64,000 bases of DNA from NCBI RefSeq assembly GCF_030811595.1, contig NZ_JAUSRB010000002.1:1550001-1614000 (forward strand), given 5' to 3'. Below the pieces are notes generated by a model, which was not told where the DNA came from, did not search any database, and was given only the letters and a program-made list of their open reading frames with translations. This stretch comes from Streptosporangium brasiliense (GTDB lineage: Bacteria > Actinomycetota > Actinomycetes > Streptosporangiales > Streptosporangiaceae). The position numbers were made by a program, and so were the translations under genes. Positions 736 through 19,473 of the stretch are shown here, in pieces. Each line of letters begins with the position of its first letter. Positions within the stretch are counted from its first letter, which is position 1.

Positions 736-1851
736 TCAAAATAATCGATCTTGTACGGGCGCTAGCGGCCGCGGCACCGCAACCCGGATCAAGGTCTTTT
801 CAGATAGTTGACCTTGGATAGGATCGCGCTCGATGCTCCCATCCTTGAGGAGCTGGCGCACCACTGCAGTGGCATGCGGAGGCCGGTAGACGGTTTCTAA
901 AAGCGTGTATTCCCTCAGATTGGCCAGTGTGTGGTCTCTGGAACTGAGTTCGGCAAGCAGAGCCCGCCGCAGTGGAGCAAGACTCGCATGTTCTCCGAAC
1001 TCGAAGGCGAGCTGATCAGGATCTCGGGGGTCACGGTAGCTGACTCCCCGAACCGGATCGACCTGCCACATGGCCTCCTTCATCTTCTCCAGTCCTTTGA
1101 GGCTGCTCGTCCCGAAGACCAGGTGAAGGTCATGCCCTTGCTCATCAAGCATTTCGAACGAGATTACGAATTTGAAGCCTGCAGCCTTCAGGGAACGCCG
1201 GTACTCGCTCACCAGGAAAGCCTTCTTAGCATGTGATGGCTGCTGGTGAACTTCACGCCACGACTGACCTCCGAAGGCAAGATCACCGCTCTCTTGGTGA
1301 AGACTGACCTTGCCGAACTGTATGAGGAAACGAGTGCCGAATGTGAGTAGAACCTCACTGGAAGGAACCGCAGCGATCCGACGAGCCACATCCAGGGGGA
1401 TGTCGGGACCACCGAAGCTGTCAAGAAATGCAAAGATCGGCCCTTGAGTAACGTTCAGCCTGGTCATCGCTGGGAACAGTACGCTCTCGTAGCCGGCGTT
1501 GTGGTACTCGATATGCATGCCGCCAGGCTGGCCTCCGCGTCTGGAGAGCGTTTGGGCCATCTCCAAGCACAGGCGCTCCATCCTGTCCCGCCGCTCCTCG
1601 ATCAAAATGAGGTTGACACGACGCCCTGGGGTGAAGAACCGACGTTGTCGGAGGAATGCTTCGGTAGCCACTACAGGAGAGCCTGGCTCTCCCTTCTCGT
1701 AGATGCCGGGACCAGCGAACGCCTCAACGTAGGTTATGGGAGACTTCCGGGCCTGCGCGAGGATCGGAAACCAAGCGTCAAGGTAGTGGCGAAGGATTTG
1801 GTGCTTGGCAACGGTGTGAGGATCACAGATCCATAGCGTCTTGTCTGGCAC
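736..1851 (-). CDS. tcmP: three-Cys-motif partner protein (TcmP family)
   Basis: A 371-residue protein. The N-terminus (T-x2-K-x2-IL-x2-YL-x-AW-x-PIL, then YVEAFAGPGIY and GEPGSP) is typical of the TcmP family, which is named for its constant pairing with proteins carrying a three-Cys motif. A FLDSFGGPDIP stretch near residue 145 resembles the D-P-F-G loop of Rossmann methyltransferases; the Pro is Ser here. The C-terminal third looks like a winged-helix tail. The gene follows the DUF5131 gene by 42 bp on the same strand, so they probably form one operon. Base composition is clearly lower in GC than the chromosomal genes to the right, consistent with transfer. The biochemical function is not established; a nucleic-acid-modifying or defence role is inference. 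Confidence 0.8.
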   Translation of the reverse strand: MPDKTLWICDPHTVAKHQILRHYLDAWFPILAQARKSPITYVEAFAGPGIYEKGEPGSPVVATEAFLRQRRFFTPGRRVNLILIEERRDRMERLCLEMAQTLSRRGGQPGGMHIEYHNAGYESVLFPAMTRLNVTQGPIFAFLDSFGGPDIPLDVARRIAAVPSSEVLLTFGTRFLIQFGKVSLHQESGDLAFGGQSWREVHQQPSHAKKAFLVSEYRRSLKAAGFKFVISFEMLDEQGHDLHLVFGTSSLKGLEKMKEAMWQVDPVRGVSYRDPRDPDQLAFEFGEHASLAPLRRALLAELSSRDHTLANLREYTLLETVYRPPHATAVVRQLLKDGSIERDPIQGQLSEKTLIRVAVPRPLAPVQDRLF

Positions 1852-1893
1852 ATTATTGTCGTACCTCTGAAGACGCAGGACGTCTATCCCTTG

Positions 1894-2649
1894 TTATCTT
1901 GCCGCAGCAACAACTGTCGCAGGAATCTCATCCCACGTGCGCTCGTCCAGAGCCCTCCCTCCCGACTTCGGTGTACGTCCACCCCACTGCTTGAAGAAGA
2001 AGGGCACACCTGCCTGCTGGCACGTATCCCGAACTTCACGCACCCAGGACGGGTTGAGAAGGCGATGGTTTGGGCCGCTTTCACCGCCAACAATCACCCA
2101 GTCGATTCCCACTAGATCCAGGCCAGGTAACGGGCCCAGCAGCGGCTCGCAGGACAAGAAGCGTAGAGCTGCTGGTATGCGGCGTAGATCGTCGATCCGG
2201 TGCATGGTGTCGATGTTCTCGACTGAGGTTCCCATCCAGACGTTGGCGGGCCAGTCGATCTTGTCGGCGAGCAGCAGAGCACGATGGGCCCGTTTGGTCA
2301 GCAGCTGGTATGTGTGCTGCGGAGTGCCGGCCATCACCTCGAAGACCTGCCGGACGAAGTCCATAGGGACTCGGGCGTGGAACAGGTCACTCATGGAGTT
2401 GACGAAGATGAGACGAGGCTGTTTCCAGCGACGGGGTACCTCTAAAGCATCGGGGTGAAGGGTGATTCCAAAGCCAGGACCCGAGGTGCGAGGGTCACCG
2501 TCGTTCTGGTACTTCTGAGCCCCCATCGCCTTGAGCCGGCGAGCGAGAGTGAGCGCATAGCAGTTATCACAGCCTGTTGAAATCTGGTCACAACCGGTCG
2601 TAGGGTTCCAAGTTGCCTCAGTCCACTCGATAGGACTTCTGTCAGACAC
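1894..2649 (-). CDS. phage Gp37/Gp68 family (DUF5131) protein with three-Cys motif
   Basis: A 251-residue protein starting at a GTG at 2649; a purine-rich ribosome site (GGAAGGGGGG) lies about 6 bases upstream, and the longer ATG at 2673 would put that site inside the coding region. The N-terminus has IEWTEATWNPTTGC followed by C-x5-GC-x2-CYA, the three-Cys motif that recalls radical SAM cluster sites. Later motifs are FVNSMSDLFH, LLTKRA, VWMGTSVEN, LSCEPLLGP and VIVGGESGP, all characteristic of the Gp37/Gp68 family found in phages and islands. The C-terminus keeps FFFKQWGG. It is first in the operon with the TcmP gene. The fold suggests an iron-sulfur or radical enzyme acting on nucleic acid, but the substrate is unknown. 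Confidence 0.85.
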   Translation of the reverse strand: MSDRSPIEWTEATWNPTTGCDQISTGCDNCYALTLARRLKAMGAQKYQNDGDPRTSGPGFGITLHPDALEVPRRWKQPRLIFVNSMSDLFHARVPMDFVRQVFEVMAGTPQHTYQLLTKRAHRALLLADKIDWPANVWMGTSVENIDTMHRIDDLRRIPAALRFLSCEPLLGPLPGLDLVGIDWVIVGGESGPNHRLLNPSWVREVRDTCQQAGVPFFFKQWGGRTPKSGGRALDERTWDEIPATVVAAAR

Positions 2650-2846
2650 TGCAGACCCCCCTTCCTTCAGCACGATCAGTTCTACGCTGCATCCGAGGTG
2701 AAATCAGAGCTATACCGAAGATCTCCAGAAAAGGTGAAGCTATCGTCACAGTCCGATCGCTTCTGACCTGTTATCTCGCCATGCCTACCTGCAACAAGGT
2801 GCAAGTGATCTAGAACTTGGTGTTCCGCGCCTGGTCTAGTCATTCG

Positions 2847-5552: not shown

Positions 5553-6806
5553 CTAAAGGAGAGTCGCGCGAAGACGTTCGTCGAACGCGCGGGCGCTGCT
5601 TGTCATTGGACCGCCATAGGTTCGGCGGAACCGTCTAGCACGTTGGATGATCCGCTCTGAGCCGTAGGTGATCCCTACCGTCAGGGCGTTTGACACCAGG
5701 TGAAAAGCCTCGTCATAGTCCCCGGACATGGCCTTGGCAGTGGCGATCTCAGTCATGAGCACTCCACGTTGCTTGATGGCTGGTTGGACCGATGACAACG
5801 ACTCAGCGAACGCGGCCACGGCTTCGTCTGCGCGGCCGAGTCGCACCATAACCAGTGCGCGATAGCCCGCGAGCTTCGCATCATCGAACGGGAAGACCCA
5901 AGGCCATGGTGGTGCTGCTGCTCGTTCGCTAGCAATTACTGCGGATTCAGCCTCTCGTAATGCGGCTACAGCGGCGGGGGCGTCATAGGCGGTCGCGTGG
6001 CCGAGTGCCTCAATGCTGCACAGCCATGCTCGTGCGGTTGCCGGTGGCTGTTCACCTAGTTCCCTCCGCGCTTGGGCGAGTAGGTCTAGCGCCAACATGG
6101 GATCATCGGCGTCGATCTCGAAGGCGGCCAGACTGCCGATCATGTAAGCCGCCAACAGGGAGTGTTCGGCCTGACGGGCGCTGTCGATCGCCAAACGGTA
6201 GTAGGTGCGCGAGGTGCCGATGTCGTGCATGTCGGCATGAAGCCATGCGGCGAAGCCAGCGGCTTCGCTCATCACTGCACGGATGTCATTGGCGAAGTCG
6301 GACTGGGTAGCGCGTCCGAGGACACGGTTCGCCAGATTCACATGGGCTACGGCTCCTCGGGCTAGCTCATTAGCGGGCGTCGTTGCCTCTAGGCGTCGTT
6401 GAGCGCCGGTGATGTTGGTCAAAGTAGGTGCGGTGGTTTCGTCTACCTCCGCACGCTTAGGCAGGGGTAGGGCTGCGAGAGCCGTGAAAGCTACCGCCTT
6501 ACCGAATTCTCTGCGTTTCGTTGGATCGTCATCCCCTCGGGCACCGAATCGGAGCAAATGAAGCGGAAGTCCGATTCGGACTGATATTTCCCGGACCTGG
6601 TCCACCGTGAGCGGCTGACGATTCCGCAGCACTTTAGAAACCCAGCTCTGGGAGTAGCCGACCGCCTCGGCTAGTTGGCCCTGCGTCCATCCGTTGGCCC
6701 GCTGTACCTCAGCGAGGACGGCGGGGATGTCGCACTCCGCGAGAGCGGCTGCTACGGCGGGCGTGGACCAGAACTGAAGCGAGGGACGGCCTTGGTCCTG
6801 TCTCAT
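5553..6806 (-). CDS. XRE-family regulator with TPR-like C-terminus
   Basis: A 417-residue protein. Residues about 25-85 form a Cro/CI helix-turn-helix (WTQGQLAEAVGYSQSWVSKV). The rest is helical, with repeated A-rich pairs resembling tetratricopeptide repeats (for example AHLLAAYMIGSLA-like and LALDLLAQARRELGEQ). This architecture is abundant in mycelial actinomycetes and in their integrative elements, where some members respond to ligands or small proteins. The start at 6806 has no clear ribosome site; the mRNA may be leaderless. It is divergent from the peptide cassette (7102 onward) and may control it. Confidence 0.8.
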   Translation of the reverse strand: MRQDQGRPSLQFWSTPAVAAALAECDIPAVLAEVQRANGWTQGQLAEAVGYSQSWVSKVLRNRQPLTVDQVREISVRIGLPLHLLRFGARGDDDPTKRREFGKAVAFTALAALPLPKRAEVDETTAPTLTNITGAQRRLEATTPANELARGAVAHVNLANRVLGRATQSDFANDIRAVMSEAAGFAAWLHADMHDIGTSRTYYRLAIDSARQAEHSLLAAYMIGSLAAFEIDADDPMLALDLLAQARRELGEQPPATARAWLCSIEALGHATAYDAPAAVAALREAESAVIASERAAAPPWPWVFPFDDAKLAGYRALVMVRLGRADEAVAAFAESLSSVQPAIKQRGVLMTEIATAKAMSGDYDEAFHLVSNALTVGITYGSERIIQRARRFRRTYGGPMTSSARAFDERLRATLL

Positions 6807-7101
6807 AACGTTAGGTTAGGCGCGGAAGTGCTACCGCACGGATATTCGTGAGAAGAATAATCCCAGTGCTGCCAGTGCTACGGCATTAACTAGGGCCAAT
6901 GCCCGCAGCGATGATCGCCCCATGAGTGCTTCTCCGCTCTGTACAGCAGGGGCTACGGCTTGCGCTCAAGAGTCGCGACGCTCCTGTCTGCACTAGAGGC
7001 ATGGCGTAGCTCTCGCTCGCATCCAAGCTCATATAAGAGCGGACCCGCCTCAGTGATTGCGCACTGGACGGGTCCTTGACCGCACACTGGAGGTGCGACC
7101 C
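6807..7101. promoter_or_regulatory. divergent intergenic region, XRE gene / cassette
   Basis: This 295-bp space separates the XRE-TPR gene from the forward cassette and must hold promoters in both directions. Repeats such as CAGTGCT/CAGTGCTA (6865-6882) and TTAGGTTAGG (6812-6821) are visible, but no operator can be assigned with confidence. Confidence 0.4.
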
Positions 7102-7395
7102 ATGGACAACTCTAGAGCTGTCCCGCTTGCAGAAGGAACTTATCCACAGCAGCAATACCTTCACCTGGTGCGGCTGGCGTGGGATCTGCGCTGGCTGGGC
7201 GTCGGGGTGCGGGTAGAACTCGCGCCGTCCCAAGAGCCGTGCCTAGTGGTGTCGCGCGCGGCGGGACCGGTGCGGGTGCTCGCCCTGCTCCGTGGCGGCA
7301 GGTGGGTCTACTCGTGGGGGCGGGGCCGCAATCAGTGGATTGCCGCCCTCAGTGAGGACGCGGCGCCGACCATTCGCAAGGTAGCTGCAGAGTGA
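7102..7395 (+). CDS. hypothetical protein of the cassette
   Basis: A 97-residue protein starting at ATG 7102 behind a GGAGGTG ribosome site at 7089-7095. It is mixed alpha/beta with a Trp/Arg-rich core (LRWLGVGVRVELAP, then a VLALLRGGRWVYSWGRGRN stretch), no signal peptide and no membrane span. The stop overlaps the next gene by 4 bases (GTGA), so the two are translationally coupled. Its pairing with an anti-sigma-type ATPase recurs in actinomycete accessory regions, but I do not recognise a function. Confidence 0.7.
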   Translation: MDNSRAVPLAEGTYPQQQYLHLVRLAWDLRWLGVGVRVELAPSQEPCLVVSRAAGPVRVLALLRGGRWVYSWGRGRNQWIAALSEDAAPTIRKVAAE

Positions 7396-7841
7396 CCAGG
7401 GAAAGCGTCTACGCGGCGTTCGAGGCGATGGTCAAGCGCTGGGCTGGCCTGCGGGTTCTGGGTCAGCGGAGTTTCTACGGAGTTCCGCAGTCGGCCGGGC
7501 GGGCGCGCAAGTGGGTGGTGGGCGTACTGAGTGCTCACGCCTCAACGGAGGTCTTAGAGACGGTGGAGCTGCTAGTGAGTGAGGTCGTCACCAACGCGAT
7601 CCTCCACAGTGACGCGGGTCCCGATGAAGTGATCACAGTCCGTGTGGGACTGCGCGACGATCTGCTCCTCATCGAAGTGATCGATGGAGGGTCGGTGTTC
7701 AACGTTCCTGCGATGCGGCCAGCCGATGACGGCCTCAGCGGACGGGGTCTGACCTGGGTGAACTCCCTGTCTAGCGGATGGGGCACCGACTACGACCCGG
7801 ATATTGGCCGGGCGGTCTGGTTCCATCTCGCCGCTGGCTAA
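7392..7841 (+). CDS. RsbW-type ATP-binding protein (HATPase_c_2)
   Basis: A 149-residue single-domain GHKL ATPase. The N-box is ELLVSEVVTNAILHS, the G1 box EVIDGGS and the G2 region DGLSGRGLTWV. There is no histidine-phosphoacceptor domain, so it resembles RsbW/SpoIIAB serine kinases or anti-sigma factors rather than sensor kinases. Its GTG start overlaps the preceding stop. Two strong hairpins follow it, so it probably ends its own transcript. In actinomycetes such stand-alone proteins number in the dozens per genome, often beside XRE regulators; the partner is unknown. Confidence 0.85.
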   Translation: MTRESVYAAFEAMVKRWAGLRVLGQRSFYGVPQSAGRARKWVVGVLSAHASTEVLETVELLVSEVVTNAILHSDAGPDEVITVRVGLRDDLLLIEVIDGGSVFNVPAMRPADDGLSGRGLTWVNSLSSGWGTDYDPDIGRAVWFHLAAG

Positions 7842-7997: not shown

Positions 7998-9119
7998 ATG
8001 ACCACCATGCACAAGCTCATCGTGAGTCCGTTCCTCGGCGAGTACGTGGTGCTCCGGCCCGGAAGTCCTGGAGGTTTGAAGATCTCCGAGGGTAAGTATC
8101 GGGAGCTCGCGGAAGCCGCGTCGTCGCCTTCGTGGTTCACCGATGCCGTCTCCGCGTCCTGGGGGTACGACCTCTCCGGGAGTTCGTTCGCCGAAACGGT
8201 GCTTATCAGGCCGGAGTCTCCTTACGGGTATGTCCGGGCGACGTACGAACTCAACCTGGGCTGCAACTACGAGTGCGAGCACTGCTACCTCGGGCTGAAG
8301 AAGTTCGAGGGACTGTCCTGGCCCGAGCGGGAAAAGTTGCTCTACATCCTGCGTGACGCCGGGGTGTTATGGCTCCAGCTCACCGGTGGCGAACCGATGA
8401 TCGACAAACTCTTCCCCGAGGTGTACGGCCTGGCCTACGAACTCGGCATGATGCTGACCATCCTGTCCAACGGCTCCCGCCTGGCTAACCCGAAGATCCT
8501 GGAACTGCTGACCACCCATCGGCCGCACGACATCACCCTCAGCATGTACGGCGCGACTGAGGCGAGTTACGACGGGCTGACCCGTCGCCGGGGTGCCTAC
8601 CGGCTGTTCACCAAGGGTCTAGCGGCGGCGCGTGAGGCCGGTCTGCCTCTGAAGCTCAGTCTGATCGTGACCAACACGAACAAGGACGAGCTAGAACAGA
8701 TGCAGGCGATGGCTGACGCGTGGGGGATTCCGCACGACGCCTTCGTGAACATGTCTCCGACGATCTACGGCGGTCCGGAGACCCTGCCAACGCAGTCGAT
8801 GGAGCATCTGCGCAAGCGCAAGCCGTTCACCGGCTGCCATGCGGGCCACACCTTCTTCCATGTCGACCCGCACGGCATGGCCAGCATTTGCAAGATCGGC
8901 CGTGATCCGCAGATCCCGCTCATGGACGAGGGCGTCGAAGGGCTGACCCGGCTGGGCGCTATCGCGGACTCCCTGCTGCTGCGGCAGGGCGGGTGTACCG
9001 GCTGCACCCTGAGCGGTTCGTGTGGGACCTGCATGCCGCTCGTCACCCTCTACCGCAAGGCGAAATCGCCTCTGCGGAACTACTGCCAGCACCAAGAAAG
9101 AGAGGAGGTGAAAGCCTGA
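7998..9119 (+). CDS. radical SAM/SPASM peptide-modifying enzyme
   Basis: A 373-residue protein from ATG 7998 (ribosome site GGAGGG at 7988-7993). The radical SAM cluster motif C-x3-C-x2-C is C89, C93, C96 (CNYECEHCY), followed by a Gly-rich LTGGEP motif. The first ~85 residues resemble a peptide-binding N-terminal domain. The C-terminus has a SPASM-like set of cysteines (GCHAGH, SICKIG, then C-x2-C-x5-C-x2-C and a last C), expected to bind auxiliary iron-sulfur clusters. This layout is typical of enzymes that crosslink or otherwise modify ribosomal peptides. The stop overlaps the start of a 43-residue peptide gene, the probable substrate. Confidence 0.9.
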   Translation: MTTMHKLIVSPFLGEYVVLRPGSPGGLKISEGKYRELAEAASSPSWFTDAVSASWGYDLSGSSFAETVLIRPESPYGYVRATYELNLGCNYECEHCYLGLKKFEGLSWPEREKLLYILRDAGVLWLQLTGGEPMIDKLFPEVYGLAYELGMMLTILSNGSRLANPKILELLTTHRPHDITLSMYGATEASYDGLTRRRGAYRLFTKGLAAAREAGLPLKLSLIVTNTNKDELEQMQAMADAWGIPHDAFVNMSPTIYGGPETLPTQSMEHLRKRKPFTGCHAGHTFFHVDPHGMASICKIGRDPQIPLMDEGVEGLTRLGAIADSLLLRQGGCTGCTLSGSCGTCMPLVTLYRKAKSPLRNYCQHQEREEVKA

Positions 9120-9250
9120 TGACCGCTGTTTCCGTCGAAATCGGGGCAAGACCCGTCGACAAACCAGAGATCGAGTTCATCGCGGACCTGGACATGCTTG
9201 TTGACTCCAACAAGTGTTCCTGCTCTGCCGGTGACGACGCTCCGTACTAG
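9119..9250 (+). CDS. putative RiPP precursor peptide, 43 residues
   Basis: ATG 9119 overlaps the TGA of the radical SAM gene (TGATG) and has a perfect AGGAGG ribosome site 10 bases upstream, stronger than that of any neighbour. The peptide is an acidic leader (MTAVSVEIGARPVDKPE, IEFIADLDMLVD) followed by a short core SNKCSCSAGDDAPY with two cysteines, Ser, Asn, Asp and a terminal Tyr. The FIADLDMLVD segment recalls the FxLD-like recognition motif of some actinomycete leaders, but no lanthionine synthetase is present. A hairpin follows the stop. Size, position and composition support a precursor; the modification is unknown (thioether or cyclophane-type links are possible). Confidence 0.75.
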   Translation: MTAVSVEIGARPVDKPEIEFIADLDMLVDSNKCSCSAGDDAPY

Positions 9251-9265
9251 AAGGTGCTGAGGTGA

Positions 9266-9295
9266 GGGCCGCCCTACGATGGCGTGGGGCGGCCC
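9266..9295 (+). terminator. attenuator-like hairpin after the peptide gene
   Basis: Perfect 9-bp arms GGGCCGCCC (9266-9274) and GGGCGGCCC (9287-9295) with a 12-base loop, followed by TTCGG. Partial termination here would raise peptide mRNA relative to the downstream kinase gene, a common arrangement in RiPP operons. Confidence 0.6.
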
Positions 9296-9318
9296 TTCGG
9301 CGTGAGGAGTGGAGAGTT

Positions 9319-10134
9319 ATGGCGGTTGCGCGCATCCACTGGGACGATCTCCCGAACGAGACCAGGGCTGCCGTCGAGAAGCACACAGGCTCGGTGTGGT
9401 CGTCGCAAACGGTGTCGGAAGGGCTCAATTCTGCGGTCGCGGCGCTGCTGGACACCGTCTCGGGCAAGGTGTTCATCAAAGGGCTGCACCGAGACTATCC
9501 CCGTCGATGGACCCAAGACATGGAAGCAATGATCAACCCGCACGTCCACGGTCTAGCGCCTCGCCTGCTGTGGCGGGTCGAAGGCGAGTGGGATGTTCTC
9601 GGATTCGAGGCCGTCGACGGCCACCACGCCGACTTCGGGCCCGGATCATCGGATCTTCCCCTGCTTGTCGGCACCATGATGGCGCTCGGGAAACTCTCCT
9701 GTCCCAATCTGCCGATGAAGGTCGCTGAGCATCGCTGGCGGACGTATGTGGCTGCTCCGGAGGAGTTGAAATGGTTGAGGGGTGATCGGCTTCTGCACAC
9801 CGACTACAACCCGGTCAATGTCCTGATAGCCGATGGCAGAGCCCTGCTCATTGACTGGGCATGGCCTACCCGAGGGGCCGGTTGGATCGATCCGGCGTGT
9901 CTCATCCTGCGCCTGATGGCCGGGGGCCATACCGCAGAGGAAGCGGAAAGAGTTGTCGCGCAGACGCCTGCCTGGTCGAGTGCTCCCGAGGAAGGCATAG
10001 AGGTCTTCGCGCGGGCGAACGTGAGGCTATGGGATGAGATCGCGGGCAACGATTCGGCTCCCTGGATTAAGCGGATGACACGTGTAGCGCATGAATGGCT
10101 GGAGTATTGGGCCTCAACGGACAGGCTTGGTTGA
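9319..10134 (+). CDS. APH/choline-kinase-fold phosphotransferase
   Basis: A 271-residue protein; ATG 9319 is preceded by GGAGTGGAGAG and is preferred over the GTG at 9262, which would start inside the hairpin. It has the bilobal kinase signature: a KVFIKG strand (ATP-lysine), then LLHTDYNPVNVLI (catalytic loop, with D and N) and ALLIDWAWP (metal-binding D). It most resembles aminoglycoside/macrolide phosphotransferase-like proteins. It is 68 bp behind the peptide gene on the same strand. It could phosphorylate the peptide, confer self-resistance, or act on an unrelated small molecule; sequence alone cannot decide. Confidence 0.8.
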   Translation: MAVARIHWDDLPNETRAAVEKHTGSVWSSQTVSEGLNSAVAALLDTVSGKVFIKGLHRDYPRRWTQDMEAMINPHVHGLAPRLLWRVEGEWDVLGFEAVDGHHADFGPGSSDLPLLVGTMMALGKLSCPNLPMKVAEHRWRTYVAAPEELKWLRGDRLLHTDYNPVNVLIADGRALLIDWAWPTRGAGWIDPACLILRLMAGGHTAEEAERVVAQTPAWSSAPEEGIEVFARANVRLWDEIAGNDSAPWIKRMTRVAHEWLEYWASTDRLG

Positions 10135-10824: not shown

Positions 10825-11670
10825 GTGGAGCAGACAGTGATTACCGACGACGGGTGTCGGCTGTGGGCAGTTCGTGTCGGCCAGGGCGATCCAGTCGTGT
10901 TCTGCCACGGTGGTCCGGGACTGTGGGAGACCTTGGGCGAGGTGGCCCAAATGCTCTCATCAGTGGCCACCGTGTATCGGTGGGATCAGCGGGGATGCGG
11001 CCGGTCTGAGCGTCTCGGCCCCTACTCGATGGCGCGGTCAGTGGCGGATCTGGATGCTGTTCGCCGCCACTTCGGGCTGCTGCGAATGACCGTGCTAGGC
11101 CATTCGTGGGGAGCGCAGCTCGCGTTGCAGTACGCGTTGGCCTACCCGGAGCGAATCACCAGACTGATCTACGTGTCCGGGACCGGAATTGATCCGGAGT
11201 CGACGTGGCACTCCGCCTATGAGAGGAACCTGCGGACTCGTCTGGGTGAGGGCCTGGAGCGTTGGCAGGAGCTGAAGCGGCGGGAGAGGACTCCTAGGGA
11301 GGATCGCGAGTTCGCGGTGTTGCAGTGGTCGGTGGACTTCGTCGATCGCACCCTGGCGCTGAGTCACGCGGAGCAGATGGCCACGCCATGGCTAGGGGTG
11401 AACTTCGAGTGCAACCGTGTGCTCAACGCCGAAACTAAGCGGTCCCTGGAAGGGAACACACTGACGTCAGTCTGCCGCACGCTTGATGTGCCCACCCTCA
11501 TCGTGGACGGCAGCGAGGACATCCGGCCCCGCTGGGCCGTCGACTCGCTGCAAGACGCGCTTCCGCAGGTATCGAGGGTGACTCTTCAAGGCGCTGGACA
11601 TCTGCCATGGACGGAAGATCCTCATGGTTTCCGGTCGGCGGTTGCTGGCTTTCTGACAACGGATGTATAG
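10825..11670 (+). CDS. alpha/beta hydrolase, proline iminopeptidase-like (S33)
   Basis: A 281-residue protein from GTG 10825. It has the S33 oxyanion motif HGGPG, the nucleophile elbow GHSWGAQLA, the acid region VDGSEDIRP and the base in GAGHLPW. RWDQRGCGRS is the usual prolyl aminopeptidase-family stretch. No signal peptide, so it acts in the cytoplasm. It is the last cargo gene before the transfer genes. Members of this family remove N-terminal residues, often Pro, from short peptides, so trimming the modified peptide is conceivable; nothing in the sequence links it directly to that pathway. Confidence 0.8.
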   Translation: MEQTVITDDGCRLWAVRVGQGDPVVFCHGGPGLWETLGEVAQMLSSVATVYRWDQRGCGRSERLGPYSMARSVADLDAVRRHFGLLRMTVLGHSWGAQLALQYALAYPERITRLIYVSGTGIDPESTWHSAYERNLRTRLGEGLERWQELKRRERTPREDREFAVLQWSVDFVDRTLALSHAEQMATPWLGVNFECNRVLNAETKRSLEGNTLTSVCRTLDVPTLIVDGSEDIRPRWAVDSLQDALPQVSRVTLQGAGHLPWTEDPHGFRSAVAGFLTTDV

Positions 11671-12691: not shown

Positions 12692-14125
12692 GTGCTGCGC
12701 AAAATGCCGGGGGCAGAGGTTCAGGGGGTCGTCTCCACGACTCCGGACACGTCGGTGGTGTTCTCGCCGATGGTCGTCAAGACTCCCGCGATCGTCGTCA
12801 TCGTGGTCTGGCTGTGGCGGCTGGTCGCGGGCCTGGTCAAGGCGGTGTGGCGGCATCCGGTCGCCTGCGTGCTGACCGGGGGGACAACGACGCTGGTCTC
12901 CCTTCTGGGCTGGCAGACGGCGGTGATCGTCTGGGGAGCGGGAGTGAGCGTGGTCTCCTCCTGGGCGGGGCTGTGGCCTGCGGCGGGGATGCGCTGGGTG
13001 GTGTGGCCTGCGCTGAGCTGGTGGCGCTGGGTGTGGGTCTACCGGCGTAAGTGGCGCTCGGTGGTGGCGGTGGCCGGGCTGGGCCGGGTGGTGCGGGGGC
13101 GCGGATATGCCCCTGATCTGGTGCGGGTGGTGTCCGATCGGTGGGTCGACCGGGTCACGGTCAAGATGCTGGACGGCCAGAGCGATGAGGAGTACGCCGA
13201 CGCGTCCGGGAATCTCGCACATGGGTTCGGCGCGGCGGGCTGCCGGATCTCCTCGCCGAAACCGGGCTGGGTGGTGCTGACCTTTCCTCGGCGGGATGCC
13301 TTGGCGAAGGTGGTGGCCGCGCGACCGTACCCGGATGCTCCGGTGGTCACCACGGTGGATGTGGGGATGGGTGAGAACGGCAGGCCGTACCGATTGCAGG
13401 TGCACGGCACGCATGTGCTGATCGCCGGGGCGACCGGTTCGGGGAAGGGCTCGTGGTTGTGGTCGGTGGTGCGGGGGCTGCTGCCCGCGCGGCAAGTGGG
13501 CCTGGTGCGGCTGTGGGCGCTGGATCCCAAGCGGATGGAACTGTCCTTCGGTCGGCCACTGTTCGATCGGTACGCGGCGACCCCGGAGGACTGCGCGGAG
13601 ATGCTGGAAGGCGCGGTGAAGGTCATGCAGGAACGGGCGGACCGGTATGCGGGGGTGCGGCGCTCGCACGTGCCGACCGAGCGTGATCCGTTCATCCTCG
13701 TCATCGTCGATGAGGTCGCGTTCCTGACGGCCTATCAGCAGGACAAGGCGCTGCGGGCGCGGATCATGGCGGCGCTGGCGACGCTGACCACGCAGGGCCG
13801 GGCGGTCGGGGTCGGTGTCATGGCGGCGTTGCAGGACCCGCGTAAAGACGTGCTGAGCATCCGCAACCTGTTCCCCGATCGGGTCGCGCTGCGGCTGGAT
13901 GAGCCGGAACAGGTGGACATGGTCCTCGGCGACGGGGCGCGGGATCGGGGCGCGCTGGCCGATCACATCGCCCGTGACCCTGCCGACCCCAGCGTCGGCG
14001 CGGGCGTGAGTTACGTGCGGCTGGAGAACGCCCCTGATCCGATCCGGGTCCGGGCGGCCTACGTCTCCGATGACGACATCCGCCACATGGTCCTTCAGTA
14101 CTCGACCGTTAGTGAGGCTGTGTGA
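12692..14125 (+). CDS. FtsK/SpoIIIE-type DNA translocase (TraSA-like)
   Basis: A 477-residue protein. Hydrophobic segments at about residues 30-120 form the membrane anchor. The motor has Walker A AGATGSGKGS near residue 240, Walker B FILVIVDEVAFL, and a TTQGRAVGVGVMAALQ sensor region. In actinomycete elements one such hexameric translocase suffices to move double-stranded DNA between hyphae, unlike relaxase-based conjugation. The GTG start at 12692 has an AGAGAGGG ribosome site. The stop overlaps the next gene by 4 bases. Length is normal for the family. Confidence 0.9.
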   Translation: MLRKMPGAEVQGVVSTTPDTSVVFSPMVVKTPAIVVIVVWLWRLVAGLVKAVWRHPVACVLTGGTTTLVSLLGWQTAVIVWGAGVSVVSSWAGLWPAAGMRWVVWPALSWWRWVWVYRRKWRSVVAVAGLGRVVRGRGYAPDLVRVVSDRWVDRVTVKMLDGQSDEEYADASGNLAHGFGAAGCRISSPKPGWVVLTFPRRDALAKVVAARPYPDAPVVTTVDVGMGENGRPYRLQVHGTHVLIAGATGSGKGSWLWSVVRGLLPARQVGLVRLWALDPKRMELSFGRPLFDRYAATPEDCAEMLEGAVKVMQERADRYAGVRRSHVPTERDPFILVIVDEVAFLTAYQQDKALRARIMAALATLTTQGRAVGVGVMAALQDPRKDVLSIRNLFPDRVALRLDEPEQVDMVLGDGARDRGALADHIARDPADPSVGAGVSYVRLENAPDPIRVRAAYVSDDDIRHMVLQYSTVSEAV

Positions 14126-14397
14126 CTGTCTCCATCGTTCTGTACGGGCTGAACTGCTCGCTGTGCGGAGAACCCGATCAGCTCTGGCAAGACCTGGTCC
14201 GGGGTCTCATCGAGTGCCGGGCTTGCGGGGCGCGGGCCTTCGCCGCTGACGGGGACATCGATCACGAGGAGTTCGACGGCGCGGAGGTGGCGGCCGAAGC
14301 GCTGGCCGTATGGGGCTTCGACGGCACGGAGTTCGACGGGGCGGGGCTCGACTTCGACGGCGGGGAGTCCGAGGTCGGGGGTTTGCTTGACCGCTGA
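14122..14397 (+). CDS. small acidic zinc-ribbon-like protein
   Basis: A 91-residue protein coupled by a GTGA overlap to the translocase gene and overlapping the replication gene by 11 bases. The N-terminal half has two C-x2-C pairs (NCSLCG and ECRACG), enough for one zinc site. The C-terminal half is an acidic low-complexity tail with FDG repeats (EEFDGAE, WGFDGTEFDGAG, DFDGGE). Small proteins like this are common between tra and rep in these elements; the function is unknown. Confidence 0.7.
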   Translation: MTVSIVLYGLNCSLCGEPDQLWQDLVRGLIECRACGARAFAADGDIDHEEFDGAEVAAEALAVWGFDGTEFDGAGLDFDGGESEVGGLLDR

Positions 14398-16015
14398 GGT
14401 TGAGCGGGGGCCGCGTGTCCTGCGGGATGCGCGGCTCCTGGCCCGTGAGGTGGCCGAGCAGGTAGCGATCGACAACGGGGTGTGTATCCGGCCGGTGCCC
14501 TATAAGCGGCTGGACTCGCTCACCGGTCTTACCGAGGTGGTGAACGTCGCGTGCGGGGCGACGCTAGAGAGCAAGTGTCCGCCGTGTGCCAAGCGTAATC
14601 GTCAGGTTCGGCGGGCGCAGTGCCGGGAGGGCTGGCATCTGGAGGCCGAACCCGTCGCGGCGGCGGTGGAGGCGAGCGAGGATCAGCGGTGGCTGATCGA
14701 GTTCCGGGCGAACCTGCAAGGTCAGCGGGATGAGGCCGAACACGCGGGCGCTGATGCGGCTGTGGCTGACCTGGACGCGGCGATCGACGCCGTTGACGCC
14801 GAGATCAACGCGGCCGGGATGTCGGGCAACGTGCTGGGGCGCACGGCCGGGCAGCGGTCCCGCTCGACGCGGCGGCGGCAGGATGCGCCGGACCTGCCTC
14901 GGCGGGTCATGCGAGACACAACGCTGGGGCGGACGTTCACCGGATCGGACGGCAAGACCTACCGGCCGTCGATGTTCGTCACGCTCACGCTGCCCTCCTA
15001 CGGGCGGGTACGTGGTGGTGTGCCGGTCGATCCGAGCACGTATGACTATCGGCGAGCGGCGCGGGATGCGCTGCACTTCTCCAAGCTCGTGGACCGCTTC
15101 GTGCAGAACTTGCGCCGGGTCGCCGGGTATGACGTGCAGTACTTCGCCTCCGTGGAGCCTCAGAAGCGGCTAGCTCCTCATCTGCACATGGCGATTCGGG
15201 GGACGTTGCCGCGTGCGGAGATGCGGCAGATCGTGGCGGCGACGTATCACCAGGTGTGGTGGCCTGCGGCGGATGAGGTGGTCTTTGACGGCGAGCATCG
15301 GCCGGTGTGGTCGGCGGGCGGGTACGTCGACCCGGTCTCGGGTGAGGTGTTGCCGACGTGGGATGAGGCGCTGGATCGGCTGGACGCTGATGAGGACGCC
15401 GAACCTCTGCATGTGGTGCGCTTCGGTGCTCAGTTCGATGTGCAAGGGGTGCTGGCAGGCAGCAAAGACGCTGATCAGTGCATCCGCTACCTGAGTAAGT
15501 ACCTGACCAAGAGCCTGGGCGACCCGATCGGGGACGGTGGCGATGGTGCGGCGCGGCGGGCGCATGCGGCGCGGCTGGTGGAGGCGCTGCGCTTTGAGCC
15601 GTGCTCGCCGGGGTGTGCGAACTGGTTGCGGTATGGGGTGCAGCCGAAGAACGCCAGAGCGGGGTTGATGCCGGGGCGGTGCCGGAGCAAGGCGCACAAG
15701 CCGGAGCACCTGGGTTATGCGGGGCGGCGGGTGCTGGTCTCGCGTAAATGGTCGGGCCGGACCATGGGCGAGCACAAGCGGGACCGGCGCTCGTGGGTGC
15801 TGGCGGCGCTGGGGCTGGATGAGGCGTCGGCCGACCCGCATCGGTATGTGTGGCAGCGCGCGGCGACGGGTGATCCGGATGTGGGCTCTGCTGCGCTGCG
15901 GCTGCTGCGGGAGGTGGCGGCCCGTCAGCGCTGGCGGGCGGAGCTGGAGCGGCTGAGAGCGCGGGCCGATGCGGCCGATATGGCGGGCCTGAGCGGTTCG
16001 GCAGTGGCCGGATGA
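14387..16015 (+). CDS. rolling-circle replication initiator (RepSA-like)
   Basis: A 542-residue protein from TTG 14387. It has the three motifs of a rolling-circle (HUH) initiator: FVTLTLPSYG (motif 1), PHLHMAIRGT (motif 2, the His-x-His metal site) and YLSKYLTKSL (motif 3, catalytic Tyr). An N-terminal Cys cluster (NVACGA, KCPPCAKRN) and a second one (FEPCSPGCANWL) probably bind zinc. RepSA-type proteins replicate the excised circle and sometimes the transferred form. A double-strand origin was not identified; in this family it may lie within or near the rep gene. Confidence 0.9.
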   Translation: MTAEVERGPRVLRDARLLAREVAEQVAIDNGVCIRPVPYKRLDSLTGLTEVVNVACGATLESKCPPCAKRNRQVRRAQCREGWHLEAEPVAAAVEASEDQRWLIEFRANLQGQRDEAEHAGADAAVADLDAAIDAVDAEINAAGMSGNVLGRTAGQRSRSTRRRQDAPDLPRRVMRDTTLGRTFTGSDGKTYRPSMFVTLTLPSYGRVRGGVPVDPSTYDYRRAARDALHFSKLVDRFVQNLRRVAGYDVQYFASVEPQKRLAPHLHMAIRGTLPRAEMRQIVAATYHQVWWPAADEVVFDGEHRPVWSAGGYVDPVSGEVLPTWDEALDRLDADEDAEPLHVVRFGAQFDVQGVLAGSKDADQCIRYLSKYLTKSLGDPIGDGGDGAARRAHAARLVEALRFEPCSPGCANWLRYGVQPKNARAGLMPGRCRSKAHKPEHLGYAGRRVLVSRKWSGRTMGEHKRDRRSWVLAALGLDEASADPHRYVWQRAATGDPDVGSAALRLLREVAARQRWRAELERLRARADAADMAGLSGSAVAG

Positions 16016-17880: not shown

Positions 17881-19398
17881 CTACCGGGGGCTACTCGGCT
17901 TGACTGGGTCGATCCGTACGCGGTCGGTGATGGGCACGCGCCTGCCTCGCCCGATCGGCTGCAACGTCACAGCCATGATCGACTTGATGACCTCGCGCCG
18001 TTGGGTGTGCCCCAACGACTTCCAAACCTTCAGGGCTTCCTCCTCCGACTCCACCCCGGCGAAGGGAGCCAGCGGATCGGTTGCACTCTGGGTGGCCTCG
18101 GCGAACCGGCGTTCTAGCTCCTCAATCCTGGCCTGTAGTTTCTTCGCCCGGCGAAGGTATTCCGGGCGTTCCACGATCCCTAGGTCACGATCTTCCCCAA
18201 GCTGGGCCTTACGTTCGCGGATCACCGCCAGTTCCGCCCGGATCTTGCCCACGTCGGTGGTGCCCTGAGACGGCTTGATCAGGTCGGCCGCGTCCCGTGC
18301 GAGGATGACCACCGCGAGCGCTTCCACGAAGTCGTCAAGATCGGCTTTCGGTGCGGTCGCGTGCGGACCGGGAGCGCGATTAGAGCCCCCCTGACAGGCG
18401 TACACCGGCCGGTCTTTCTTCCCGCTCGATCCCGAGACGCGGACCACTGCGCCACACGGGCAGGCCGCGATGCCGGACAACAGGTGATGGGGCGCAACGC
18501 CGGGATTCGTCCGCCGGTGCGGGTCGGTCAGCTTGCCCGTGATCACCCAATGCTCCTCCGGGGTCACGATCGCCTCCCACGGCGCGACGCCGATCACGTC
18601 TTCCGGCGTGTAGGTCTTGCGGCCCTCGCCCGGCTTGTAGACCATGAGCGCGGCGTTGCGGGGGCGCAACAGCACATCGCGGACGGTCGGCGCGATCCAT
18701 GGCCCCCCGTCGGCCGCCATGATCCCTTCAGCGCGAAGATCACCCGCGATCCCCGCCAGGGTCGGACCCTTCGGCGTGCCGAACGCCGGGAGCAGAACCA
18801 CATCCGCCATGCGCCGGATAACGGCTATCTCGGCGGGGATCGGGGTCTCGCCGTCCGCTTCGAACCCGTACGGCCGTCGCCCGCCGCCGAACCGTCCCTC
18901 TTCGGCCTGACGTTGACGAGCCCGGCTCACGCGCCGCGCGGTGTCCTTGCTCGACTTGTTGGCCACCGCGCACATGATCCGCGCCATCGTGATCCCGGCG
19001 TCGCTGGTGAGCTGGCATGACCCCGTCAGGCTCTCGCACGTGACGGCGAACTTTGAAGCTTCCACAAGGTCAATCAGGTCTTCGAGATCGCGCGGCTGAC
19101 GGGCAAGCCGGTCAAGATCGAGCACCACTAGGACGTCAACCTGACGGGTCGCCAGAAGATCAAGCCCTCGGCGGAACTCCGGCCGTACGGTCCGTAGCTC
19201 GCTCTGGCCGTTCGGAAGCTTAATCTTCCGGCGCTTGAACGCGCTGGTGTCGTTCTCGACCAACACGTGATCTTCGCTGAGTGACCAGCCTCGGCGAGCG
19301 ACGAACGCGCGCATGTCCTTGACCTGGTCGTCCACACCGGCCGTCTCCCCGTCGTCCGCGTCGCTGATCCTGGCGAGGATGGCCGCTCGCTTGCTCAT
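17881..19398 (-). CDS. int: large serine integrase
   Basis: A 505-residue protein; ATG 19398 has a GGGAG ribosome site, and upstream extension would run into the attachment arm. The resolvase-type catalytic domain starts RAAILARISD (nucleophile Ser12) and includes the VLVVLDLDRLARQ loop; the recombinase domain has GGGRRPYGFE and LAGIAGDLRAEGI; a zinc-ribbon region has ACPCGAVVRV; a coiled coil (IRAELAVIRERKAQLGED and KKLQARIEELERRF) follows. It lies 68 bp from attR, pointing away from it, as expected for an enzyme acting on the adjacent attP. It catalyses integration into the ABC gene; excision would need a directionality factor not recognised here. Confidence 0.95.
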   Translation of the reverse strand: MSKRAAILARISDADDGETAGVDDQVKDMRAFVARRGWSLSEDHVLVENDTSAFKRRKIKLPNGQSELRTVRPEFRRGLDLLATRQVDVLVVLDLDRLARQPRDLEDLIDLVEASKFAVTCESLTGSCQLTSDAGITMARIMCAVANKSSKDTARRVSRARQRQAEEGRFGGGRRPYGFEADGETPIPAEIAVIRRMADVVLLPAFGTPKGPTLAGIAGDLRAEGIMAADGGPWIAPTVRDVLLRPRNAALMVYKPGEGRKTYTPEDVIGVAPWEAIVTPEEHWVITGKLTDPHRRTNPGVAPHHLLSGIAACPCGAVVRVSGSSGKKDRPVYACQGGSNRAPGPHATAPKADLDDFVEALAVVILARDAADLIKPSQGTTDVGKIRAELAVIRERKAQLGEDRDLGIVERPEYLRRAKKLQARIEELERRFAEATQSATDPLAPFAGVESEEEALKVWKSLGHTQRREVIKSIMAVTLQPIGRGRRVPITDRVRIDPVKPSSPR

Positions 19399-19443
19399 GT
19401 CCGCTCTCCCGTCGTGTTGACTGCTTGGTTCCATTTTACGTGG

Positions 19444-19473
19444 AAGAAGCGTCATAATTCAGGGTTGGGCAAG
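19444..19473 (+). other. attR (left half of attP plus core GGGCAAG)
   Basis: The arm AAGAAGCGTCATAAT (19444-19458) matches the inverted arm at attL at 13 of 15 positions. If the ends are joined, the arms and the inner GGGC-AA-GCCC are both symmetric about the AA dinucleotide (19471-19472, equal to 4665-4666), the layout expected of a serine integrase attP with an AA crossover. Confidence 0.8.

Follow-up and report, generated by a model that had tools for sequence, protein, structure and literature searches.

The closest described counterparts of the genes reported here are radical SAM enzymes of the SPASM type that act on ribosomally synthesized and post-translationally modified peptides (RiPPs). 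In streptide the link joins Lys to Trp, and SuiB is a maker of carbon-carbon bonds; in mycofactocin the SPASM enzyme acts near the C-terminal Tyr, and MftB is a separate protein. Group-transfer tailoring of RiPPs also has precedent, in the kinase of the lasso peptide paeninodin and in the acetyltransferases of albusnodin and goadvionin. Here we analyze a cassette of three genes in a 64,000-nucleotide stretch of Streptosporangium brasiliense DNA (the window; C2:1550001-1614000 of a 10.49-Mb genome). The cassette encodes a 373-residue radical SAM/SPASM peptide maturase (7998..9119, +; assigned from motifs, Pfam and a structure model), a 43-residue precursor peptide, MTAVSVEIGARPVDKPEIEFIADLDMLVDSNKCSCSAGDDAPY (9119..9250, +; assigned from its open reading frame (ORF), the motif of its homologues and its ratio of nonsynonymous to synonymous substitution rates, dN/dS), and, as the third gene, a 271-residue APH-like kinase with intact catalytic residues (9319..10134, +; Pfam and alignment). 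We consider it probable that this is a compact RiPP cassette in which the maturase grips a leader, the core is modified, and the kinase is matched to the core Tyr. Sequence comparison points to a RiPP family of the radical SAM/SPASM kind whose precursor is new, whose transferase is matched to the core residue, and which also occurs in a phage.

The gene arrangement is as the preliminary description had read it: a CX3CX2C radical SAM enzyme with SPASM-type Cys, a short peptide gene overlapping the enzyme stop, and a kinase-fold gene after the peptide. The peptide ATG overlaps the maturase TGA as TGATG at 9119, and the ribosome-binding sequence AGGAGGT lies ahead of the peptide start (9103..9109, +; from reading of the sequence). 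The window precursor has two Cys and a conserved core, CSCSAGDDAPY (9215..9247, +), whose final Tyr is the proposed kinase target, as conservation and co-occurrence with the third gene suggest.

Our collection of relatives comprised 196 loci, the window included, which reduce to 165 distinct loci; the samples of relatives overlap one another, and the best 80 of 216 relatives were kept from the scan of genome contigs. In 164 of the 165 distinct loci the enzyme is immediately followed by a peptide that bears the C-terminal pattern, 162 of these loci being scored by script and two by eye (L083, where no stop intervenes between the motif and the end of the contig, and L094, an in-frame fusion). 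In L035, the sole locus where the peptide is missing, the contig breaks off within the enzyme gene. Of the 165 loci, 161 have the strict ending, [DENS][DENS]xP[YFH] plus at most three residues; among 1,583 positions drawn at random from these loci it occurs just twice, and on this count we reject the peptide as a chance ORF. The loose pattern alone is frequent, at 414 of the 1,583 random positions. At eight further radical SAM loci in the window genome, inspected at one fixed place each, we found nothing in seven and the loose pattern in one; this control is weak because the place examined was not the stop of each gene.

Enzyme and peptide genes usually overlap or touch, and the peptide start overlaps the enzyme stop as ATGA in 87 of the 162 scored loci. 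The cores fall into a CxC class (113/162), which reads C-[SNA]-C and then mostly xAGDD[NQ]P[YHF], and a GCx class (49/162), mostly GC[GNS][DNE]DNP[YF], with a one- or two-residue tail in 41 of 49. Such a tail extends past the aromatic residue in 46 of all 162 peptides. The aromatic position holds Tyr, Phe or His in every scored peptide (162/162), and every scored core contains Cys (162/162), although the conservation of Pro and Cys is partly by construction, since the search pattern asked for both; in L211, an IMG/VR locus read by eye, Val replaces Pro.

Selection on the peptide was estimated from 50 independent pairs of loci whose enzymes are 80-98.5% identical. The peptide as a whole has a dN/dS of 0.33; its leader part reaches 0.41, and its last 12 residues only 0.10. 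A value of 0.79 obtained from equal-length peptides was discarded, as unrelated sequences had been paired. Conservation is strongest in the last 9-12 residues; the leader/core boundary implied by the 14-residue core of the preliminary description is tentative. These comparisons show that enzyme and precursor form a constant pair and that selection acts on the precursor at the protein level, most strongly at its end. Together with the SkfB- and SuiB-like model of the enzyme, the peptide at 164 of 165 loci and its dN/dS strongly support the RiPP reading, which had been tied from the outset to a conserved peptide downstream of homologous enzymes and to conservation of that peptide at the protein level, both of which are borne out here.

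The maturase carries the radical SAM Cys C89-x3-C93-x2-C96 and the SPASM-type Cys C280, C298, C333, C336, C342, C345 and C363. All ten are invariant in a 73-row alignment, in which G293 is nearly invariant. The set fits the SPASM pattern, GX4C ... CX2CX5CXnC ... C, with the last pair reading CX2C here and CX3C in the general pattern. Against Pfam Radical_SAM the protein scores 47.3 bits, above the cut-off of 29.5. Its AlphaFold model, from a 67-row alignment, has a predicted local distance difference test score (pLDDT) of 87.2 and a predicted template modelling score of 0.88. From the N terminus, the layout is a strand-strand-strand-helix-helix unit followed by a radical SAM barrel and then by a SPASM tail, with residues 329-340 modelled poorly. 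The N-terminal unit, predicted to span residues ~5-70, resembles a RiPP recognition element (RRE; 8010..8207, +; three strands, then helices), an assignment made from the secondary structure of the model and the alignment with SkfB and SuiB.

The top Foldseek ranks for the maturase model are SkfB (7.1e-16), BlsE, 5WHY, 5WGG, SuiB and EpeE; 5WHY and 5WGG are structures from sactipeptide thioether work. VIA-align 2 superimposed the model on SkfB (Z 22.6, root-mean-square deviation 5.5 over 306 residues, model residues 6-350) and on SuiB with the SuiA peptide (Z 21.9, deviation 4.6 over 328 residues, model residues 5-366), the ranges giving the first and last aligned residue only and the part outside 73-366 being barely tested according to the warning of the tool. 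Because these two alignments begin at residue 5-6, N-terminal residues are included; the other rows mostly begin at residue 73-79. Both SkfB and SuiB carry an RRE domain. The fusion in L094 (Streptomyces sp. APSN-46.1, 6001-7251) places maturase and precursor in frame in one ORF, of 417 residues as read. In its model, built from 48 alignment rows of which 21 continue past the stop, the mean pLDDT is 87 over leader residues 391-400 and 60 over residues 401-410; residues 394-396 form a strand and residues 399-407 a helix. Values fall below 50 in the linker (371-388) and at the core end (411-417). A strand in the leader needs a partner, which suggests that the leader docks on the maturase in this fusion.

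The third gene varies with the core. Flanking families were defined by an all-against-all comparison of ORFs around 88 loci, some with flanks shorter than 6 kb, and were named by eye from representative sequences; this comparison replaced codon-score gene calling, which had missed even the kinase. The commonest families directly downstream are the kinase (67/88 loci) and a two-domain GNAT protein (19/88). K54, H160-T-D162, N167 and D179 of the kinase are invariant in 20 of 20 aligned sequences, and R239, G242, G244 and R245 of the GNAT in 12 of 12, with a Pfam GNAT match in both members scanned. The N-terminal ~170 residues of the GNAT protein are themselves conserved (for example LPYDKDxRW; L010 5394-6275 and relatives) and matched no Pfam family in the two proteins scanned.

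Presence of kinase and GNAT was then scored per locus by profile search. Among the 165 distinct loci, the 119 with a Tyr core have the kinase (108), both genes (8), the GNAT only (2) or neither (1); all 31 His loci have the GNAT, as do 11 of the 13 Phe loci, the other two having neither, and two loci were unscored. A second set of 176 loci added 15 IMG/VR loci and the phage described below, dropped enzyme fragments under 240 residues, L035 and L083, omitted the IMG/VR loci L207, L213, L214, L221 and L223 as presumed duplicates, and counted L211 as a Tyr core. Here, 127 of 131 Tyr loci have the kinase (119 alone, 8 with GNAT), three have the GNAT alone and one has neither; the 45 Phe or His loci have no kinase at all, 43 having the GNAT and two neither. 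The GNAT is not bound to Phe or His, as the eight Tyr loci with both genes demonstrate; the kinase is never found without Tyr. The core aromatic residue appears to predict the third gene, a striking association that is new here. As the kinase is never seen beside Phe or His cores, we propose with moderate confidence that it phosphorylates the phenol of the core Tyr.

By a quick search, the core aromatic residue changes at least six times on the enzyme tree. In five independent pairs on well-supported branches, the kinase changes the same way in 3.9 on average, the opposite way in 0.0, and shows no difference in 1.1; smaller trees give the same direction (2.9/4 and 2.9/3 contrasts). One small enzyme clade (L058, L026, L204 and L206) lacks the kinase and switches between Tyr and Phe cores. 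Near relatives of that clade carry kinase and GNAT together, and a recent loss is possible. A small protein family is also found at 10/88 loci, mostly downstream (for example L014 5346-5858, beside a Phe core with neither kinase nor GNAT).

Several results weigh against the reading of the cassette as a leader-gripping maturase with a Tyr-matched kinase. The kinase scores only 19.3 bits (E 0.001) against Pfam APH, below the cut-off of 23.2, so that its assignment rests mainly on the invariant catalytic residues. Four of the 131 Tyr loci (L030, L073, L086 and L206) have no kinase. The link between Tyr and kinase gives p 0.125 on five contrasts, too few pairs for a sign test to reach 0.05 or for the pattern to be formally free of shared descent, and the GNAT follows the residue less tightly (1.8/5 contrasts). 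No peptidase family recurs in the flanks of four or more of the 88 loci, and the only transporter-like family there is one ABC ATPase, at 5/88 loci. With neither a peptidase nor an exporter often recurrent, leader removal and export are unexplained.

In the mechanism that we favor, the overlapping genes would couple enzyme and precursor, as their sequence suggests. The next two steps we infer with good confidence. The RRE-like domain of the maturase would grip the acidic leader in its IEFIADLDMLVD region, as the models suggest. The core, CxCxxxDDxPY, would then be presented to the radical SAM/SPASM center and altered there, in keeping with the enzyme family. Finally, the kinase would phosphorylate Tyr, or the GNAT would acetylate the product, as their co-occurrence with the core residue suggests. 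We suggest more weakly that the radical step might form a thioether from the conserved Cys to a residue in the D-D-[NQ]-P-[YFH] tail. SkfB, the 5WHY and 5WGG neighbors and the Cys in every scored core make us lean toward a Cys thioether, with a carbon-carbon link, epimerization or oxidation as alternatives. Instead of the thioether, the enzyme might join two carbons in a cyclophane-like link at the terminal aromatic ring, though this is the less likely outcome. The invariably aromatic position (Tyr, Phe or His) and the presence of SuiB among the best structure matches would suit it. However, Cys is just as constant, though required by the search pattern; a terminal aromatic residue cannot begin the usual aromatic-X-X unit; and the phenol would have to be free for a Tyr kinase to act. 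It is also conceivable, on weak grounds, that the product is completed or silenced by phosphorylation or acetylation, which would protect the producer. Silencing rather than completion is slightly favored by the weak resemblance of the GNAT to resistance enzymes, its best PDB profile match being the tabtoxin resistance protein (E 0.0037), with nourseothricin acetyltransferase at E 0.032.

Downstream of the cassette are an FtsK/SpoIIIE-type transfer gene (12692..14125, +; Pfam), a RepSA replication initiator of the pSAM2 type (14387..16015, +; Pfam, 326 bits) and a serine recombinase gene (17881..19455, -; profile scan). The combination of a replication initiator with FtsK-type transfer and recombinase genes near the cassette corresponds to the gene set of an actinomycete integrative and conjugative element, and the surroundings resemble pSAM2-type integrative elements. 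Streptomyces phage Success, which was isolated on S. lividans, also carries a complete cassette at its left end (L284 6001-8115), where gp3 is the enzyme (50.1% identity), gp2 the precursor, MNTATTTTEETGTVVLVDDVEALTGDITPGCGDDNPYN, and gp1 an annotated kinase; the annotations read oxidoreductase, hypothetical protein for the precursor, and kinase. Such an end position in phages often holds lysogenic accessory genes. From the helix-turn-helix (HTH) and tyrosine-recombinase genes near the cassette, we infer that Success is temperate.

Across genomes, the family is patchy, as scattered counts and the lack of other matches in its own genus indicate. The enzyme is present in 17 of 200 genomes of the family to which the window belongs, 17 of 394 of its class, 77 of 394 of family f18, 6 of 35 of family f17 and 6 of 396 across the phylum. 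There was no match in 10 other listed genomes of its genus and nothing in the six genomes of an order-level search. Eight PLSDB records hold the enzyme at 80% coverage or more, one of them an 11.85-Mb record and two from the same strain. Twenty close IMG/VR contigs are among the best 80; one cultivated phage, Success, was matched in two records, along with one distant phage record. All named records among close relatives are actinomycetes or phage Success. An element hallmark lies within ~6 kb at only 4 of 80 genome loci, a weak test made with six query proteins, so that general mobility is not proved. The horizontal mobility suggested at first is consistent with the window element and with phage Success and is conjectural for most relatives, and the wider proposition that the cassette is usually on mobile elements is not established.

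A different function would follow if the cassette were an intracellular addiction or defense module of mobile elements, in which the enzyme would make the peptide active and either transferase, kinase or GNAT, would serve as chemical antitoxin. We regard this as a tentative possibility. The phage-borne and element-borne copies, some of the plasmid records and the close IMG/VR contigs are consistent with it, as are the lack of any often-recurring exporter or peptidase around the 88 loci and the fact that both types of third gene are group-transfer enzymes. Two HTH-type families also occur near 31/88 and 22/88 loci, mostly upstream, the former being relatives of the HTH/TPR regulator in the window. 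The scarcity of element hallmarks speaks against it, as does PADLOC, which gave viperin models alone, over the radical SAM core, and none for kinase, GNAT or peptide. A specific version, spread over actinomycete chromosomes, mobile elements and phages, in which the radical SAM enzyme arms a small cytosolic peptide that the residue-matched transferase disarms, serving addiction, superinfection exclusion or defense, seems to us rather unlikely; the transferase would be the kinase at Tyr cores and the GNAT at most Phe or His cores.

It is quite improbable that the peptide is instead the source of a small redox cofactor of the mycofactocin or PQQ kind, with the C-terminal aromatic residue as material. 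The mycofactocin maturase is the best NCBIfam match of our enzyme, and the aromatic residue is at or near the C-terminus; but the score of 61.1 bits is far under the cut-off of 265, the core may end in Tyr, Phe or His and continues for one or two residues in 46/162 peptides, and no recurring set of partner oxidoreductases or peptidases lies nearby. It is scarcely credible that the enzyme is a prokaryotic viperin partnered by the kinase and that the small ORF is incidental, since the PADLOC pVip match (E 5.8e-16, residues 83-231) and the alignment of viperin structures to the maturase core stand against an NCBIfam viperin score of 47.4 (cut-off 180), the additional SPASM Cys and N-terminal domain, the absence of a PADLOC match for the kinase, and strong conservation of the peptide, selection on which contradicts an incidental ORF.

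Other genes of the window were also noted. Directly upstream of the cassette is a HATPase_c_2 (anti-sigma-like) gene (7392..7841, +; Pfam), possibly a candidate regulator of the cassette, and beyond it the divergent HTH/TPR regulator (5553..6806, -; Pfam, with relatives found by ORF comparison). Just after the cassette, an alpha/beta hydrolase resembling proline iminopeptidases (10825-11670, +) could trim a peptide here; its family is not recurrent near relatives (88 loci). At 736-2673 (-), a DUF5131 gene (331 bits) is accompanied by a winged-helix gene of GMT-like type, possibly as a separate accessory or defense pair on the same element. Class V lanthipeptide and thioamitide systems have a HopA1-type partner beside an APH-like kinase; no such partner was noticed among the recurring flanking families of the 88 loci, for which no HopA1 profile was run.

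The enzyme, at 77 of 394 genomes in one family, marks a common peptide family that has no name. The natural fusion of enzyme and precursor in L094 is a handy test protein, and the cassette family has a genetic prediction of the kinase-modified residue built into it. With the fusion, the phage copy and the residue prediction, mass spectrometry could be applied directly to a radical SAM reaction that would otherwise stay anonymous. The fusion, the phage copy, the alternative GNAT and the link of kinase to Tyr go beyond the preliminary description. Should the transferase prove to be a chemical antitoxin, RiPPs would be linked to the conflicts of mobile elements with their hosts, and if the peptide is indeed armed and disarmed, the system would include a dedicated RiPP tyrosine kinase.

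As for earlier descriptions, the precursor is not described in the open PMC literature, as far as searches of part of the listings showed, and the same literature yielded no paper on a DDNPY motif with radical SAM and no example of a dedicated RiPP tyrosine kinase. The peptide matches no Pfam family, and neither peptide nor kinase has an NCBIfam match at E 1. That the family is undescribed, as first proposed, holds for the NCBIfam and Pfam matches and for the PMC listings searched, though not for all literature. A 2022 survey counts 22 unreported putative radical SAM RiPP pathways, some of them given only in its supplement (PMC9062424), and prior notice of this cassette family there is possible.

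Among the best 25 of 43 matched NCBIfam models, none is reached by the maturase at its cut-off. Besides the mycofactocin and viperin models, these include the sactipeptide maturases SkfB (33.9 bits, cut-off 300), AlbA (33, cut-off 850) and StsB (54.9, cut-off 625) and PqqE (44.8, cut-off 381.35). Assignment to the viperin, mycofactocin, PQQ or known sactipeptide families was rejected on these scores. Our enzyme resembles SkfB and the sactipeptide maturases in having radical SAM core, SPASM and N-terminal domain in one alignment, whereas its score lies far below the SkfB cut-off and precursor and third gene differ from those of such systems. It aligns with SuiB over model residues 5-366 (Z ~22), yet there is no Trp in the window precursor and no Lys within CSCSAGDDAPY. 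With mycofactocin (MftA/MftC) it shares a SPASM enzyme and a C-terminal Tyr, MftC being the best NCBIfam match; unlike that system, the RRE-like domain is fused rather than a separate MftB, and cores also end in Phe or His. Self-resistance transferases for tabtoxin and nourseothricin are like the GNAT in a weak profile match, but the protein here has the additional N-terminal ~170 residues that match no Pfam family. Finally, the third gene recalls the kinases of lasso peptides and the acetyltransferases of other RiPPs in that it would tailor a RiPP by group transfer; in contrast to lasso systems, no lasso genes were seen here, and the kinase tracks Tyr, not Ser.

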